Source of the DNA: Bradyrhizobium sp. OK095 | Lineage (GTDB): Bacteria; Pseudomonadota; Alphaproteobacteria; Rhizobiales; Xanthobacteraceae | NCBI RefSeq assembly: GCF_900109945.1 | Contig: NZ_FOBX01000002.1 | Span: 496,001 to 560,000 of the forward strand | Length of the DNA: 64,000 nt | Direction: 5' to 3' | Shown here: piece after piece, positions 36,609-45,380 of the stretch | Layout: the number at the start of each line of letters is the position of its first letter | How positions within the stretch are numbered: the stretch's first letter is position 1 | Notes under the pieces: model-generated | The model's database searches: none | What the model was told of the DNA's origin: nothing | What the model saw: only the letters and a program-made list of their open reading frames with translations | Made by a program: the position numbers and the translations under genes

Positions 36609-37271
36609 ATGCGTTTGGCCCTTTACACCGGAATAATACTGGCTGCTGGTTACACCAGCCTGACCCCTGCGCTCGCCGCCGATCCCACCGGCGACTGGCG
36701 GGTCGCCGACGGCGTCGCCAATATCCGTGTCGCCCAGTGCAATGGCAGCATGTGGGGCGCCGTTTCCTGGGAAAAGCAGCCTGGCGGCCGCGACGAGAAC
36801 AACCCGGATGTCTCGAAAAAGAACAGGCCGACACTGGCCATGCCGACCCTGATCGACATGAAGAAGAAGCCCGGCGCCGATCAGTGGGAAGGACAGGTCT
36901 ATAACGCGCAGGATGGCCAGACCTACAGCGCGACCATCACGCCTGTTGGCACCGACCAGCTCGAGATCAAGGGCTGCGTGATGGGCTTCCTCTGCGGCGG
37001 CGAGACCTGGACCCGGGTTGGACCGCCAATCCCCTTGAGCCCCGCCAACGCCATGGCCAAGGGTGCGCCAAAGCCCGCCGGCGCGGCGCCGAAAGCCCAA
37101 GGGACCCAAGCAGCCCAACAAGGCACACCCGGCACGACGGGTGCCACAACACCAGCGCCCGCAGCAGTGGCCCCGAAGACGGCCGCCGCCGCCAAGCCCG
37201 GCCCGAAGGGCGTCGCCGACCCCGTCGGCGACATCTGCCTACTCCCTGAGATTGCGGGGTTTGCCCATTAG
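36609..37271 (+). CDS. Exported DUF2147 protein
   Basis: 220-aa periplasmic protein. Signal peptide LALYTGIILAAGYTSLTPALA, then a DUF2147 domain (DPTGDWRVADGVANIRVAQC ... WEGQVYNAQDGQTYSATI ... IKGCVMGFLCGGETWTRV) and a long Ala/Pro/Gly-rich tail from about residue 150. AAGGAA lies 6 bases before ATG 36609. The end overlaps the convergent hpnN end by 33 bases. Function of the domain is unknown. Confidence 0.83.
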   Translation: MRLALYTGIILAAGYTSLTPALAADPTGDWRVADGVANIRVAQCNGSMWGAVSWEKQPGGRDENNPDVSKKNRPTLAMPTLIDMKKKPGADQWEGQVYNAQDGQTYSATITPVGTDQLEIKGCVMGFLCGGETWTRVGPPIPLSPANAMAKGAPKPAGAAPKAQGTQAAQQGTPGTTGATTPAPAAVAPKTAAAAKPGPKGVADPVGDICLLPEIAGFAH

Positions 37272-39827
37272 GGCCGGCTGAAACAGCAGCACGGCGGCAA
37301 GCGTTGTCACCAGCGAGAGGGCGAGCAGCTTGCCCATGCTGGACGTTCCAGGATGGCTCGACAGCCAGAGGCTGCCGAACGCCGTTGCCGTCGTCAGCGC
37401 GCTGAAAAAGATCGCGCGTGTCAGGCTGGTCTGAAGCAGGTTTGTCCTGCCCGAACGCCAGGCCACGACATAATAGATCTTGAAGGCGACGCCGATGCCG
37501 AGCAGCAGCGGAAACGCGACGATGTTGGCGAAATTGAGCGGCAGGCCGATCAGCACGCATATCTCGAGCGTCACCGCACCGGCCACCAGCAGCGGCACCA
37601 GCGTCATCAGCACGTCGATGAACCGCCGCAGCGCGAGCCACAGCAACAGGCTGATCACCAGCAGCGCATAGATGCCGGCGTGGATGAACGCATTCACCAC
37701 AGTATCGCCGGATTTCAGGATCGAGACCGGGCCGCCGATCGCGGTCGGCTCGGCATTGAGCACCGCCGCCGCAAATTTGCGCAGCGTGTCGTTGTCGTTG
37801 GGATCGCCCTTCGGCTGCGCCTCGACGCGGATGATGCCGTCCTTGCTCTTCCAGGCACTGACGAGGTCCGGCGGAAGTGAGTTCAGGGTGACGGGACCTG
37901 CCTGCATCGCGTTCCTGAGCTGGTCGAACACGATCTTCAGCGGCGCGACGAACACGTCCTGGGCCTTGTTGCGCGTGGCCTCGTCGCCATTGCCGAGCTT
38001 TTCGAGCGCGTCCGCCAGCCGGCGAGAGGCGATAGCGCCCGGGCCCTTCGTGTCACCGGAGGTCCGGCGCAGATTGTCGACCGACGACTTCAGCGAATCG
38101 ACGTTTTCCTTGTCCGACGGCGCCGCATCGATCTGGTCGGGATTGAGCGCGGGGTTCAGCACCTTGGCGCCCTGCGCGATCAGCTTCAGCTTCGGCGGCT
38201 GATCCTCCGGCACGAAGCTGTTGAGCGACATCACGCGCAACACCTCAGGCACCTTCTCGAGCTTCGCCTCGACCTGCTTGGCCTGCTCTTCCGACGTGGT
38301 CATCACGTTGATGGCATTGGCGCCCGTGTTGGGATCCTTGCGCAAATCGAGGAAGGTCGCGATCGACTCGGCCTTCGGGTTGCGCAGGTTCATCGGGTTG
38401 AAGTCGAACTTCAGGAAGTAGAGCAGCGGCAGGCCTGCAATCGCCAGCAGCAAAGTGCCGCCCACAACCAGCACACGGTGCTTTTCCAGGAAGTCATCGA
38501 GCGGCGCCAGGAAGGCATAACCGACCGGCTCCATCTCGCCGGGCGGATTCAACAGCTTCAACATCGCGGGCAGCACCGTGATGCTGGAGATGAACGCCAC
38601 CAGCATGCCGACGCCGGCGATCTGGCCGAGTTCGGAGATGCCCCTGTAATCGGTCGGCAGGAAACAGAGGAAGCCGGCGGCGGTCGCCATTGCCGCCAGC
38701 GACAGCGGCACCGCGGAGCGCTTTGCGGCAAGCACCAGCGCGCCGGAGAGATTGTCGTGCTTGTAGCGCTCCGAGCGGTAGCGGACGCTGTACTGGATAC
38801 CGAAATCGACGCCGAGGCCAACGAACAGCACGGCGAACGCGATCGACAGCAAATTGAACGAGCCCACCATCATCAGGCCGGCAGCGGTCGTCAGCGCAAG
38901 GCCGACGAAAAGATTGATGAATACCGCGAAGATGATCTTCGACGAGTGCAGCGCCAGCCACAGGATGAGCAGCACGACCAGCACAGTTCCGATGCCGTTG
39001 ACGACGGCGCCTTCCTGGACGGTGGCGTATTCCTCATTGGCAATCGGGACCGGACCGGTCAGTCGCACCCGCGCCTGGTATTTGGTTGCAAAATCCAGAT
39101 CCACTGCCGCCTTGCGGATCGCGTCGGTGGCGCCCTTGCCGGGCTCCAGCGCGTTGTAGTCGAGGATCGGCTTGAACTCGATGAAGGCGCGCTTGTCGGC
39201 ATCCGTCAGCGGCTCGTCGCTGACGAGCTCGCGCCAGGAGAAGCTCGCATTGCCCTTGTTGAGCACGGTCTCGACCGTCTGCGCGATCATGTTGAAGGGA
39301 CGCTCGGTGTTGTCGAGCTTGACCTGGCCACGCTTGACGCCAGCAAGCCCCGTCTCCAGCGCGCCGGTCAGGCCGCGGATCGAGGGATCACCCGCCATGA
39401 TTTCGATCAGGGGCGCAGCGGATTCGAACTGGCTGGTGGTCTTGCCGACTTCCTCGGTCGGCAGGAACAACAGGCCATTCTTTTCGAAGAACTCGCCGGT
39501 GCCGAGCTGCTGTATCGACTGGAAGTCGGTCTTGTTGTCCTTCAGCTTTGCGAACAGCGCATCCGCTGCCGCAGTCGCCATCTCCGGCGTCCTGGCCTCG
39601 ACGACCGCGAGAATCGTCGCGTCGCGGTCGAAGGCGCGGTCGAACTGCTGGTCGCGCTTACGCCAGTCGAGATTTTGGGCAATCAGCGAGTTGATGTCGG
39701 TGTTGATGGCGAAGTGCTGCGATGTGTAATAGCCGGCCCCCACCGATAGCAGGAGCCCGAGAGCGACGACGAGGGAGGCAAACCGGGTGCAGGCCCTGAC
39801 GATGGCGACGACTACGCTTTGCAGCAC
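37239..39827 (-). CDS. hpnN: Hopanoid RND transporter HpnN
   Basis: 862-aa MMPL/RND transporter of the hopanoid group. Two sets of membrane helices with large periplasmic domains: TDINSLIAQNLDWRKRDQQF after TM1, FVGLGVDFGIQYSVRYR in the first repeat and the matching VAFPLLLGIGVAFKIYYVVA in the second. In R. palustris HpnN moves hopanoids from inner to outer membrane. Start is GTG 39827, no nearby in-frame ATG fits. It lies between hpnO and hpnH. Confidence 0.92.
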   Translation of the reverse strand: MLQSVVVAIVRACTRFASLVVALGLLLSVGAGYYTSQHFAINTDINSLIAQNLDWRKRDQQFDRAFDRDATILAVVEARTPEMATAAADALFAKLKDNKTDFQSIQQLGTGEFFEKNGLLFLPTEEVGKTTSQFESAAPLIEIMAGDPSIRGLTGALETGLAGVKRGQVKLDNTERPFNMIAQTVETVLNKGNASFSWRELVSDEPLTDADKRAFIEFKPILDYNALEPGKGATDAIRKAAVDLDFATKYQARVRLTGPVPIANEEYATVQEGAVVNGIGTVLVVLLILWLALHSSKIIFAVFINLFVGLALTTAAGLMMVGSFNLLSIAFAVLFVGLGVDFGIQYSVRYRSERYKHDNLSGALVLAAKRSAVPLSLAAMATAAGFLCFLPTDYRGISELGQIAGVGMLVAFISSITVLPAMLKLLNPPGEMEPVGYAFLAPLDDFLEKHRVLVVGGTLLLAIAGLPLLYFLKFDFNPMNLRNPKAESIATFLDLRKDPNTGANAINVMTTSEEQAKQVEAKLEKVPEVLRVMSLNSFVPEDQPPKLKLIAQGAKVLNPALNPDQIDAAPSDKENVDSLKSSVDNLRRTSGDTKGPGAIASRRLADALEKLGNGDEATRNKAQDVFVAPLKIVFDQLRNAMQAGPVTLNSLPPDLVSAWKSKDGIIRVEAQPKGDPNDNDTLRKFAAAVLNAEPTAIGGPVSILKSGDTVVNAFIHAGIYALLVISLLLWLALRRFIDVLMTLVPLLVAGAVTLEICVLIGLPLNFANIVAFPLLLGIGVAFKIYYVVAWRSGRTNLLQTSLTRAIFFSALTTATAFGSLWLSSHPGTSSMGKLLALSLVTTLAAVLLFQPALMGKPRNLRE

Positions 39828-40303
39828 TTCTTTTCTTTCTGCGGTTAACAGCTTGCCGAAAACGCCCGCTGTTTAACGGAGTTCCCGGGCGAAACCTATT
39901 GCTGTTTTGAGTGGCAACCGCCGGAACAAGGTTCGAGGTAAACGGCGGGCGGCCAAGAAAAAATCATTGCGGGGCAGTCGGTATAGCCGGGGAGATGAGG
40001 CGGGAAGGTGGCGAAGCCGTAAGCACAAATGCCGCCCTCTTGTGCCGCCCTTTTGTTCCATTGGCGGATTTACTATAATACCGGCCGAACGACTCGCCGT
40101 AGAACTCCAGCTGCATTCAACCTTTCCTTACTGCCGTTTTTTTGACAGAAAGTGCTGTACCTCCATACGCCGAAGCCTCGGATGGGTGGGCGGCTACCGC
40201 GCGGGCGAGCCAATGGTGCGGATTTTGCAGCTGATTGGTCAGTACCGGGGGTGCCGCTGGGGACTACGAAGCGGATTGGTGCAACTTGGGTGATGGGCGT
40301 CCA
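39828..40303. other. Non-coding stretch between hpnN and the ispH remnant
   Basis: No convincing gene. It must hold the promoters for hpnN (leftward) and hpnH (rightward). Short AT-rich runs (e.g. around 40128-40145) stand out from the GC-rich surroundings. No recognisable first half of ispH was found in any frame, although the second-half fragment begins right after. Confidence 0.5.
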
Positions 40304-40675
40304 ATGGAACTTATCGGGGCCCTCCAGGCCCGCTTTACAGATATTCAAGGTCCGGATATCCGGGATATCTGCTATGCGACACAGAGCCGCCAATCTGCGG
40401 TAAGGGACTTGAGCAAGCTGGTCGAATTGATCTTGGTGGTGGGCGCTGCCAATAGCTCGAACTCGAACCGGCTCCGCGAAATCGGCACTGAGGCCGGCGT
40501 CGCGCGTTATTTGATTACCGACGGCAGCAAGCTCAATCCGGAGTGGTTGAAAGATGCCAGGACCGTCGGCGTCACGGCCGGCGCCTCGGCGCCCGAGACA
40601 TCGAATTCAGGCTTCCGGCCCAATTGGCTGCGAGCTGACCCACCCGAATTCCAAGCCCAGAAAGAAACTTTGTAA
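40304..40675 (+). pseudogene. Remnant of ispH (HMBPP reductase), C-terminal part, coupled to hpnH
   Basis: An open frame of 123 codons whose start ([18 protein letters not shown]) and core match the last third of Isp[15 protein letters not shown] with the third cluster cysteine, [18 protein letters not shown] and [10 protein letters not shown]. The first two cluster cysteines and the N-terminal two-thirds are missing, and the tail after ASAPE is unlike IspH, so it cannot be a working reductase. The frame's stop overlaps the hpnH start (TAATG). IspH makes isoprenoid precursors; a copy beside hopanoid genes would fit the pathway. An upstream TTG at 40235 is in frame too. Confidence 0.8.
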
Positions 40676-41835
40676 TGGCTATCCCCTTCTTCAAGGAAAT
40701 GCGTATCGGCGGCTATTTGATCAAGCAGAAGCTGCTTGGCCGCAAACGCTATCCGCTCGTGCTGATGCTGGAGCCGTTGTTCCGCTGCAACCTCGCCTGC
40801 GTCGGCTGCGGCAAGATCGATTATCCGGATGCGATCCTCAACCGCCGCATGACCGCACAGGAGTGCTGGGACGCGGCTGACGAGTGCGGCGCGCCGATGG
40901 TCGCCATTCCCGGCGGCGAGCCGCTGATCCACAAGGAGATCGGCGAGATCGTGCGCGGCCTCGTCGCGCGCAAGAAATTCGTCTCGCTCTGCACCAACGC
41001 GCTGCTGCTCGAGAAGAAGCTCGATCTGTTCGAGCCCTCGCCCTATCTGTTCTTCTCCGTGCATCTCGACGGCCTGAAGGAGCATCACGACAAGGCGGTG
41101 TCGCAGAAGGGCGTGTTCGATCGCGCCGTCTCCGCGATCAAGGCGGCCAAGGCGCGCGGCTTCACCGTCAACGTCAACGCCACCATCTTCGACGGCCATC
41201 CGGCCGAGGAGATCGCAAAGTTCCTCGACCTCACCGTCGAGCTCGGTGTCGGCGTCTCGATGTCGCCCGGCTACGCCTATGAGCGCGCGCCGGACCAGGA
41301 GCACTTCCTCAACCGCACCAAGACCAAAAAACTGTTCCGCGACGTCTTCGCCATGGGCAAGGGCAAGAAGTGGAATTTCATGCATTCCGGCCTGTTCCTG
41401 GACTTCCTCGCCGGCAACCAGGAATACGAGTGCACGCCGTGGGGCATGCCCGCGCGCAACATTTTCGGCTGGCAGAAGCCCTGCTACCTGCTCGGTGAAG
41501 GCTACGCGAAAACCTTCAAGGAGCTGATGGACACCACCGACTGGGAGACCTACGGCACCGGCAAGTACGAGAAGTGCGCCGACTGTATGGCCCATTGCGG
41601 CTACGAGCCGACGGCTGCGACCGCAGCCATCAGCCACCCGCTGAAGGCGATGTGGGTGTCGCTGCGCGGCGTCAGGACCACGGGCCCGATGGCGCCCGAG
41701 ATCGACATGACCAAGCAGCGCCCGGCGCAGTACATCTTCTCGGCGGAAGTGCAGAAGCGCCTGTCGGAGATCCGCAAGGACGAAGCCGTCGCCGCGCAGG
41801 AGAAGGCGGCGCGGAAGGCTTCGACTGCGGCGTAA
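40675..41835 (+). CDS. hpnH: Hopanoid radical SAM protein HpnH
   Basis: 386-aa radical SAM enzyme that joins the 5'-deoxyadenosyl radical of SAM to diploptene, giving adenosylhopane, the first step of side-chain building. Cluster motif CNLACVGC at Cys38, Cys42, Cys45, followed by IPGGEPLIHKEIGEIV. C-terminal SPASM-like cysteines in YEKCADCMAHCGYEP. ATG overlaps the ispH remnant's stop. Partner HpnG is 12.8 kb away. A hairpin terminator follows. Confidence 0.94.
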   Translation: MAIPFFKEMRIGGYLIKQKLLGRKRYPLVLMLEPLFRCNLACVGCGKIDYPDAILNRRMTAQECWDAADECGAPMVAIPGGEPLIHKEIGEIVRGLVARKKFVSLCTNALLLEKKLDLFEPSPYLFFSVHLDGLKEHHDKAVSQKGVFDRAVSAIKAAKARGFTVNVNATIFDGHPAEEIAKFLDLTVELGVGVSMSPGYAYERAPDQEHFLNRTKTKKLFRDVFAMGKGKKWNFMHSGLFLDFLAGNQEYECTPWGMPARNIFGWQKPCYLLGEGYAKTFKELMDTTDWETYGTGKYEKCADCMAHCGYEPTAATAAISHPLKAMWVSLRGVRTTGPMAPEIDMTKQRPAQYIFSAEVQKRLSEIRKDEAVAAQEKAARKASTAA

Positions 41836-44655: not shown

Positions 44656-44691
44656 GCTGGATTACAGTGACACGATTTACAGTTACAGCTC

Positions 44692-44723
44692 GTAGGATGG
44701 GTTGAGCTCTTGCGAAACCCATC
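44692..44723. repeat. Left inverted repeat of the REP-type transposase unit
   Basis: GTAGGATGGGTTGAGCTCTT followed by GCGAAACCCATC; matches the reverse complement of 45281-45312 at 30 of 32 bases. It borders the transposase gene and resembles REP-like ends carried by such genes in Bradyrhizobium. Confidence 0.85.
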
Positions 44724-44749
44724 GCGCTTGTTTCGTGGTATCGTCCATC

Positions 44750-45271
44750 ATGACCGCGTACCGTCGCAACTTCGTTCCGGGTGGATGCTTCTTCTTCACC
44801 GTCAATCTGGCGGAGCGGAAGCTGTCGTTGCTGACGGATCATGTCGAGCTGTTTCGTGAGACGCACCGGCGCCATCCATTTGCGATCGATGCCATCGTGG
44901 CGCTGCCTGATGACCTTCACACCGTATGGATGTTAGCCGAAGGCGATGCCAATTTTGCGATGCGCTGGCAGTTGATCAAGTCCGCCGTTTCGCGCCGTCT
45001 GGCGCGGAACGAAAGAATCTCCCAAAGCCGTTCGGCCAAGGGGGAACGCGGCATTTGGCAACGCAGATATTGGGAGCATACCATTCGCGACGAAACCGAC
45101 CTCGCCCGGCATGTCGACTATGTTCACATCAATCCGGTCAGGCATGGGCTCGTCGACAGGGTGCACGACCGGGCGCCGTCCTCGTTTCATCGTCACGTGG
45201 AGCTTGGCAACTACCCAGCCGATTGGGCGGGCGATCAGTCAGATGATGGCCGCGATTACGGAGAGCGGTGA
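44750..45271 (+). mobile_element. REP-associated tyrosine transposase (RAYT, Y1 family)
   Basis: 173-aa protein of the REP-associated single-strand transposase family, coding on the plus strand from ATG 44750. Recognised from FVPGGCFFFTVNLAER, RWQLIKSAVSRRL, GERGIWQRRYWEHTIRDE with the nucleophile-side Tyr, and HVDYVHINPVRHGLV. The HUH metal motif normally reads HLH in this family (DHLH); here it is DDLHTVWML, so the first histidine is Asp and activity is doubtful. Flanked at both ends by 32-base inverted repeats. Confidence 0.88.
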
Positions 45272-45280
45272 CCGGGAAGA

Positions 45281-45312
45281 GATGGGTTTCGCAAGGGCTC
45301 AACCAATCCTAC
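45281..45312. repeat. Right inverted repeat of the REP-type transposase unit
   Basis: GATGGGTTTCGCAAGGGCTC followed by AACCAATCCTAC, the near-perfect reverse complement of 44692-44723 (two differences). The unit thus spans 44692-45312, about 620 bases. Confidence 0.85.
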
Positions 45313-45315
45313 GCG

Positions 45316-45380
45316 CTGTCACAGGAATTGCCGTGTCTCACTTACGGGGTGCAGTCCGGCACTGTCACCGTAATTTTGTA
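45316..45380 (+). repeat. Degenerate direct repeat, copy 2
   Basis: GTGTCTCACTTACGGGGTGC and CACTGTCACCGTAATTTTGT align with copy 1 at 42429 with about one change in five and a short gap. It begins three bases after the transposase unit's right repeat. Confidence 0.6.

Follow-up and report, generated by a model that had tools for sequence, protein, structure and literature searches.

A decaying second ispH copy before hpnH in Bradyrhizobium, with a frozen nucleotide stretch in its remaining third

Gene content of the locus

The window analyzed here, a stretch of 64,000 nt from Bradyrhizobium sp. OK095, carries a short open reading frame between a divergent transporter gene and an intact hpnH. 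Sequence features of the region, in window coordinates, are as follows.

37239..39827, minus strand: hpnN-like RND/MMPL transporter gene, the divergent neighbour (Pfam MMPL, 1.5e-22; the neighbour in relatives also)
40142..40147, plus strand: TTGACA, a -35-like box upstream of ispH2 (present in 7/7 broken copies; candidate by sequence)
40304-40675, plus strand: ispH2 remnant, open frame of 123 codons (open-reading-frame list and Pfam match)
40304..40312, plus strand: ispH2 codons 1-3 with the native ATG, joined in frame to codon ~175 onward (alignment with intact copies)
40313..40597, plus strand: codons ~175-269 of ispH2, frame unchanged, protein constraint gone (Pfam, alignment, dN/dS)
40334..40348, plus strand: TTTACAGATATTCAA, ispH2 codons 182-186 (codons mostly non-preferred; 4/5 near-invariant in intact copies)
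40358..40405, plus strand: frozen core, ispH2 codons 190-205 (27-mer at 40358-40384 unchanged; one substitution beyond the 27-mer)
40598..40675, plus strand: shifted-frame tail of 25 codons and TAA, after a 79-nt deletion (alignment with relatives)
40659..40666, plus strand: AGAAAGAA, conserved motif before hpnH, possible ribosome-binding site (35/35 genomes)
40675..41835, plus strand: hpnH, radical SAM, intact (Pfam; strong purifying selection)

The initial annotation had read the frame at 40304-40675 as a truncated ispH in contact with hpnH, and both observations are confirmed: the 123 codons are open, and the remnant TAA overlaps the hpnH ATG in the letters TAATG at 40673-40677. Residues 2-99 match the LytB/IspH family (PF02401) over profile positions 162-257 of 267 (E 1e-28), and E. 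coli-type IspH structures match the remnant as well (E 9e-26); a chance match is excluded. A second, complete ispH (ispH1) is present elsewhere in the genome as a 344-codon open frame (E 4e-91). The divergent transporter, which Pfam identifies only as MMPL, we take to be hpnN. The downstream gene hpnH is under strong constraint, with dN/dS of 0-0.08 in the pairs tested, and its product is adenosylhopane synthase according to PMC12583986.

Origin of the remnant

In most Bradyrhizobium copies ispH2 has 308 codons and precedes hpnH, with hpnN diverging upstream. Comparison of the junction in relatives, proposed in the initial annotation, finds full-length ispH2 before hpnH, its stop lying 34-81 nt upstream of the hpnH ATG in 29 relatives. 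Alignment with intact copies identifies the ATG at 40304 as the native ispH2 start with its upstream context kept. Because this is the original start codon, the remnant is the product of internal deletion and not of a lost 5' end. A 513-nt in-frame deletion, found in the window genome only, removes codons 4-174 and joins codon 3 to codon ~175; a 79-nt frame-changing deletion follows codon 269, beyond which the authentic last 39 codons of ispH2 cease to encode IspH residues. Remnant residues 99-123 come from out-of-frame reading of the 3' end of ispH and of its spacer to hpnH, through the old ispH TGA still present at 40636-40638. The frame is not, as first described, the last third of IspH: the tail is in a shifted frame, the start is native and the deletion is internal. 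The stop-start contact is real, but the stop is not ispH's own.

Among 19 aligned copies, the stop-start overlap occurs only in the window genome (G000) and in Bradyrhizobium sp. 1 inoc1_57 (G215). Relatives, G005 and G008 among them, already have the letters TAATG in their spacer, in another frame. Because they pre-exist there, the overlap arose by accident and is a by-product of the 79-nt deletion common to G000 and G215. The other deletions form a series: 180 nt in G215 and B. betae Opo-243 (G022), 9 nt in G022, 45 and 3 nt in G215, 513 nt in G000, and 81, 327, 12 and 6 nt in G223. G215 retains more of the N-terminal part than the window genome and represents an intermediate stage.

Distribution among congeners

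A search of 265 congeneric genomes with an intact ispH2 as query yielded 253 full-length-scoring copies (E below 1e-176; about 100 of the 253 without coordinates shown), seven broken copies and five genomes assigned to neither class. An intact ispH once preceding hpnH, as initially supposed, is indeed the ancestral state according to these relatives. The seven copies broken inside a contig belong to G000, G215, G022, G223, G070, G009 and G120, and all seven of these genomes have a full-length hpnH; in G175, G183, G193 and G250 ispH2 is cut by contig ends or incomplete. Beyond the genus, ispH2 precedes hpnH in 26/26 genomes examined from other genera of the family, all picked by DNA similarity to the core described below. 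The last of the five genomes in neither class, G204 (placed in the genus, 4.3 Mb, 95% complete), gives no ispH match and, for hpnH, nothing beyond a weak radical-SAM hit.

On a tree of hpnH from 35 genomes, G000, G215, G022 and G223 share a clade of 11 with seven genomes whose copies are intact; the tree does not separate G000, G215 and G022 from the intact copies, and several forks there are open. Set against the shared deletions, this implies either a poorly resolved tree or, possibly, exchange of the ispH2 region. Exchange is possible because the synonymous divergence of ispH2 in the G000/G215/G022 pairs (0.045-0.11) is lower than that of hpnH (0.13-0.18).

In G070 (L041/L065) one base lost from a G run splits ispH2, while its nearest neighbour on the hpnH tree, G069, is intact, and the event is either a very recent loss or a sequencing error. 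G009 (L069) and G120 (L070) share an identical one-base loss near ispH2 codon 245 without being sisters on the hpnH tree, possibly through recurrent slippage or exchange.

Loss of protein constraint

The dead copies are no longer constrained at the protein level. Between them dN/dS is 1.18 (G000-G215, on 3.5 synonymous and 12.5 non-synonymous changes), 1.21 (G000-G022) and 0.92 (G215-G022), with 16 to 58 changes per pair, against 0.01-0.10 between intact ispH2 copies and 0.01-0.06 for hpnH in the same G000/G215/G022 pairs. Dead copies compared with intact ones give 0.25-0.42 over the gene, as expected of mixed histories in which part was still constrained; for G223, which has no dead sister, this is the only kind of dN/dS available. 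The 104 private substitutions of the four dead copies are spread over codon positions 1/2/3 as 35/37/32. The earlier reading of good motif keeping as a sign of protein function is not supported, given this flat distribution and the dN/dS values, small as their counts are.

One of the three IspH cysteines is kept (in DICYAT), the GFCAG and NATCP segments having been deleted; the Fe-S cluster cysteines of E. coli IspH are C12, C96 and C197. The VRHE, SAHG and GHPEVEG segments, which we take to be N-terminal active-site segments of IspH, all lie inside the 513-nt deletion, and the PF02401 domain of the remnant is not full length. Protein constraint is lost, orthologues are intact in 253/265 congeners and the ispH1 paralogue is complete, as in a pseudogene. 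Because constraint, two of the three cysteines and the active-site segments are gone, the remnant protein would have no enzyme activity, and an Fe-S protein is not a plausible reading of it either.

Maintenance of the reading frame

Within the clade of G000, G215, G022 and G223, nine of ten deletions are multiples of three (P = 3.6e-4); the ratio is 7/8 when doubtful G223 events are merged (P = 0.0026) and 4/5 for large events only (P = 0.045), and some small in-frame indels sit in short codon repeats, a bias towards multiples of three. In all four copies the frame opens at the native start and ends 36 nt or less before hpnH, or inside the hpnH start. Outside the clade the frame is broken before an intact hpnH: by 1 nt in G070, by 8, 1 and 1 nt in G009, and by 1 nt in G120, which has also lost its native start. 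The resulting stops lie 511 nt, 202 nt and ~200 nt before hpnH, respectively. Together with a 3-nt loss in G120, one of six indels in these three genomes is in frame, and over all seven broken copies the count is 10/16 (P = 0.016); the start-removing deletion of G120 enters no in-frame count. The proposal that the open frame is retained is therefore borne out in the clade, where the frame is open beyond chance, but not elsewhere.

Avoidance of polarity is a fair reading for the G000/G215/G022/G223 clade and no general rule. An operon-internal pseudogene can be kept in frame because of polarity, and the window resembles such a case in its dead protein, open frame and intact downstream gene; it differs in that frame-keeping is confined to one clade and that a frozen nucleotide stretch is present in the relic as well. 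Selection against nonsense codons was considered separately and dropped, the absence of stop codons in the remnants being not significant (1.9 expected, P(0) = 0.14).

A frozen stretch in ispH2

Synonymous diversity was measured in 84 distinct intact copies, obtained by deduplicating 98 copies of exactly 308 codons, with other lengths excluded. They were drawn from the best 80 of 436 named loci by protein similarity, one of them titled Frankia, and from 35 loci comprising the window and 34 others chosen mostly by hpnH DNA similarity, of which 7/35 are broken. Five of the 80 named loci fell outside the ORF filter (L083, which is G215, L153, which is G022, and L136, L144 and L162). Codons 190-205 show a synonymous diversity of 0.010-0.012 against a gene mean of 0.22, a level reached by 0/20,000 column permutations. 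Together with codons 182-186, they include TTT, ACA, CAA, TCT, GTA and AGG, each a minority codon in both ispH2 and hpnH. In a comparison of the lowest-diversity windows over 1,556 codons of ispH2, hpnH and hpnN (70-71 copies), codons 190-205, with a codon preference of 0.41, are by far the most frozen window of low preference; the remaining windows with diversity <0.06 lie in hpnH and have preferences of 0.97, 0.99 and 0.59. Whole-gene codon preference is 0.64 for ispH2, 0.85 for hpnH and 0.81 for hpnN. The hpnH window of middling preference (0.59) covers its codons 5-20, at about 40687-40734 of the window, with a synonymous diversity of 0.059.

The paralogue provides a control. In 35 genomes, the minimum of synonymous diversity in ispH1 falls at this position too (0.056 vs 0.217); in 25 matched genomes the values are 0.078 vs 0.224 for ispH1 and 0.020 vs 0.290 for ispH2. 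Because ispH1, which does not precede hpnH, is also lowest there, part of the freeze may be due to ispH coding; the rest points to the nucleotides themselves. Codon bias for translational accuracy fits ispH1 and most of the hpnH windows, where the codons are preferred ones, and was rejected for ispH2. In the cysteine-loop region of ispH1 (L001, L238-L271) the preferred codons and different letters amount to an opposite codon choice between the two paralogues. A multi-copy element kept by gene conversion was also considered and found unsupported, with one match per genome among the genomes listed (G000 and congeners, two to three candidates scored in each).

The 27-mer of codons 190-198 is unchanged in 7/7 broken and 80/84 intact copies, and the full 48-nt core in 5/7 and 75/84; the core has one changed base in the window copy and four in G215. 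Across the four drifting copies, differences number 5/192 within the 48-nt core, four of the five in G215, vs 59/1,069 beyond it (P = 0.057), and the 27-mer has 0/108 vs 59/1,069 downstream (P = 0.003, with a boundary chosen after seeing the data). Codons 182-205 are untouched by any deletion (P = 0.002-0.016 under a model of uniform placement, with the size of the G120 deletion assumed). In broken copies, 308-390 nt separate the stretch from hpnH. Farther upstream, a T-run and TTGACA are found in 77/84 intact and 7/7 broken leaders.

Outside Bradyrhizobium, the core is recognizable in 26 genomes of other genera, a sample biased by its selection for DNA similarity to the element. Third-position diversity in these other-genus copies is only mildly lower in codons 182-205 than overall (0.352 vs 0.455); in the DNA search of the family from which they were taken, 187/391 genomes gave no match.

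Discussion

We consider that the remnant probably shows a redundant ispH2, the first gene of an ispH2-hpnH unit, in the course of being lost, its remaining DNA serving as leader of the hpnH message. Co-transcription of the two genes we infer from their layout. With ispH1 able to cover the isoprenoid step, ispH2 in the line of G000, G215 and G022 probably lost its catalytic residues through the in-frame 180-nt deletion, which is seen in G022 and G215 and would be hidden in G000 by the larger 513-nt one. More deletions would have come next, among them the 79-nt one, which by chance brought the stop to overlap the hpnH ATG, and the protein sequence would now drift neutrally. The leader that is left would comprise the upstream -35-like box and the native ispH2 start, followed by the 3' third, in which the frozen stretch lies, and by the motif ahead of hpnH. 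Deletions may have been tolerated mainly where the leader stayed open to translation, with no polar effect on hpnH, and where the 3' third was kept. The staged deletions, the loss of protein constraint, the intact hpnH and the kept landmarks are matters of observation. We infer hpnH expression to be the reason for what was kept.

Three other accounts of the remnant fare less well. The initial annotation proposed that it delivers ribosomes to hpnH through the stop-start overlap. Such translational coupling would agree with the TAATG contact in the window and G215, in both of which the frame is open, but we find it improbable: the overlap is not ancestral, the ispH2 stop lying 34-81 nt from hpnH at the 29 related loci and the TAATG letters of G005 and G008 being in another frame; AGAAAGAA occurs within 25 nt of the hpnH start in 35/35 genomes examined; and in G070, G009 and G120, where the frame is shifted or the start lost, it ends far upstream of an hpnH that is nevertheless intact. 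The same annotation also raised a small Fe-S-related protein. Production of a small functional protein, of this or another kind, would explain an open frame with a native start and the surviving DICYAT cysteine, but is very unlikely given dN/dS of ~1, even substitution across codon positions, the deletion of the other two cysteines and the N-terminal active-site segments, and an out-of-frame C-terminus. Finally, an assembly error had been named as what might lie behind the truncation if relatives had an intact ispH. They do, and the 513-nt deletion is seen in the window genome alone, yet an assembly or sequencing error is scarcely credible. A search for the 79-nt junction among the 265 congeners finds one other genome, G215, that matches across it in one piece at 97%, and on this shared junction we rejected the error; G215 is a separate assembly of another species, its ispH2 copy and that of G000 have diverged from each other, and an 862-kb contig contains the junction far from its ends.

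A further possibility, which we put forward tentatively, is that the 3' third is kept for a cis-acting element of hpnH, the reading frame being irrelevant. In its simplest form the element would be a promoter of the extended -10 type within the gene, with TGCTATG as part of the near-invariant GATATCTGCTATGCGACACAG, or else an RNA element. The low diversity of codons 190-205, unmatched in the permutations, their standing as the most frozen low-preference window of the three genes, the unchanged 27-mer in all broken copies (on its post hoc boundary), the avoidance of codons 182-205 by deletions and the recognizable core in the similarity-picked genomes of other genera are consistent with it. An extended -10 of the form TGnTA has been described for B. 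japonicum (PMC4842269); the main text of that study of transcription starts has no occurrence of 'hpn', 'hopan' or 'ispH'. Against such an element stand the diversity minimum of ispH1 at the same place, although with preferred codons, the low codon preference of ispH2 as a whole, the lack of clear conservation of the full 48-nt core in dead copies, and the distance of the stretch from hpnH in broken copies. Scans were also negative: no sigma-70 promoter pair or terminator was found in 39800-40760, where TGCTATG is extended -10-like by eye only; an Rfam search of 39700-41000 gave no match up to E 1; and the fold of 40304-40680 is not unusual (z -0.64). It may be, though it is less likely than not, that ispH2 codons ~182-205 are an old nucleotide element, an internal promoter or RNA signal, controlling hpnH family-wide, and that the gene erodes around it once the enzyme is dispensable. 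If so, the broken copies would map, by natural deletion, a cis-element concealed within coding sequence, and with it hopanoid control in rhizobia. We regard an element as the most useful hypothesis, and a frozen-stretch element serving hpnH as our leading guess.

Returning to the loss of a redundant ispH2, a close comparison is the intact ispH2-hpnH pair found in Bradyrhizobium and in further genera of its family. It shares with the window its location, start codon and motif before hpnH; the window copy, however, lacks the C-terminus and most of the active-site segments, and ends in a stop that overlaps hpnH. The housekeeping ispH1 of the same genome belongs to the same enzyme family, with 42-43% identity to the remnant; unlike the remnant it is intact, has no hpnH within the 3.8 kb examined at its locus and uses preferred codons in the cysteine-loop region. 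A shc-hpnH-ispH cluster has been described in subdivision 1 Acidobacteria (excerpt of PMC5462960), likewise pairing ispH with hpnH in a hopanoid context in a distant phylum. In a small literature search on ispH or lytB together with hpnH or hopanoids, the excerpts returned mention neither an ispH decaying in front of hpnH nor a frozen stretch of this kind.

By itself the remnant is a commonplace case of a gene turning into a pseudogene; what is of moderate interest is the frozen stretch, together with the series of natural deletions. Seven broken copies, each followed by an intact hpnH, indicate the bases that selection may still require, and all of them keep the frozen stretch of non-preferred codons; the series makes hpnH control directly testable. 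In B. diazoefficiens, loss of hpnH inhibits symbiosis with Aeschynomene afraspera but not with soybean, as stated in an excerpt of PMC11005386.

One more feature is apparent farther along the window: a 47-nt inverted repeat, 87% complementary between its arms at 44677-44723 and 45281-45327. The repeat ends (44677-45327) enclose a frame of 189 aa (44702-45271) that has no Pfam match and resembles, by eye, a REP-associated tyrosine transposase.
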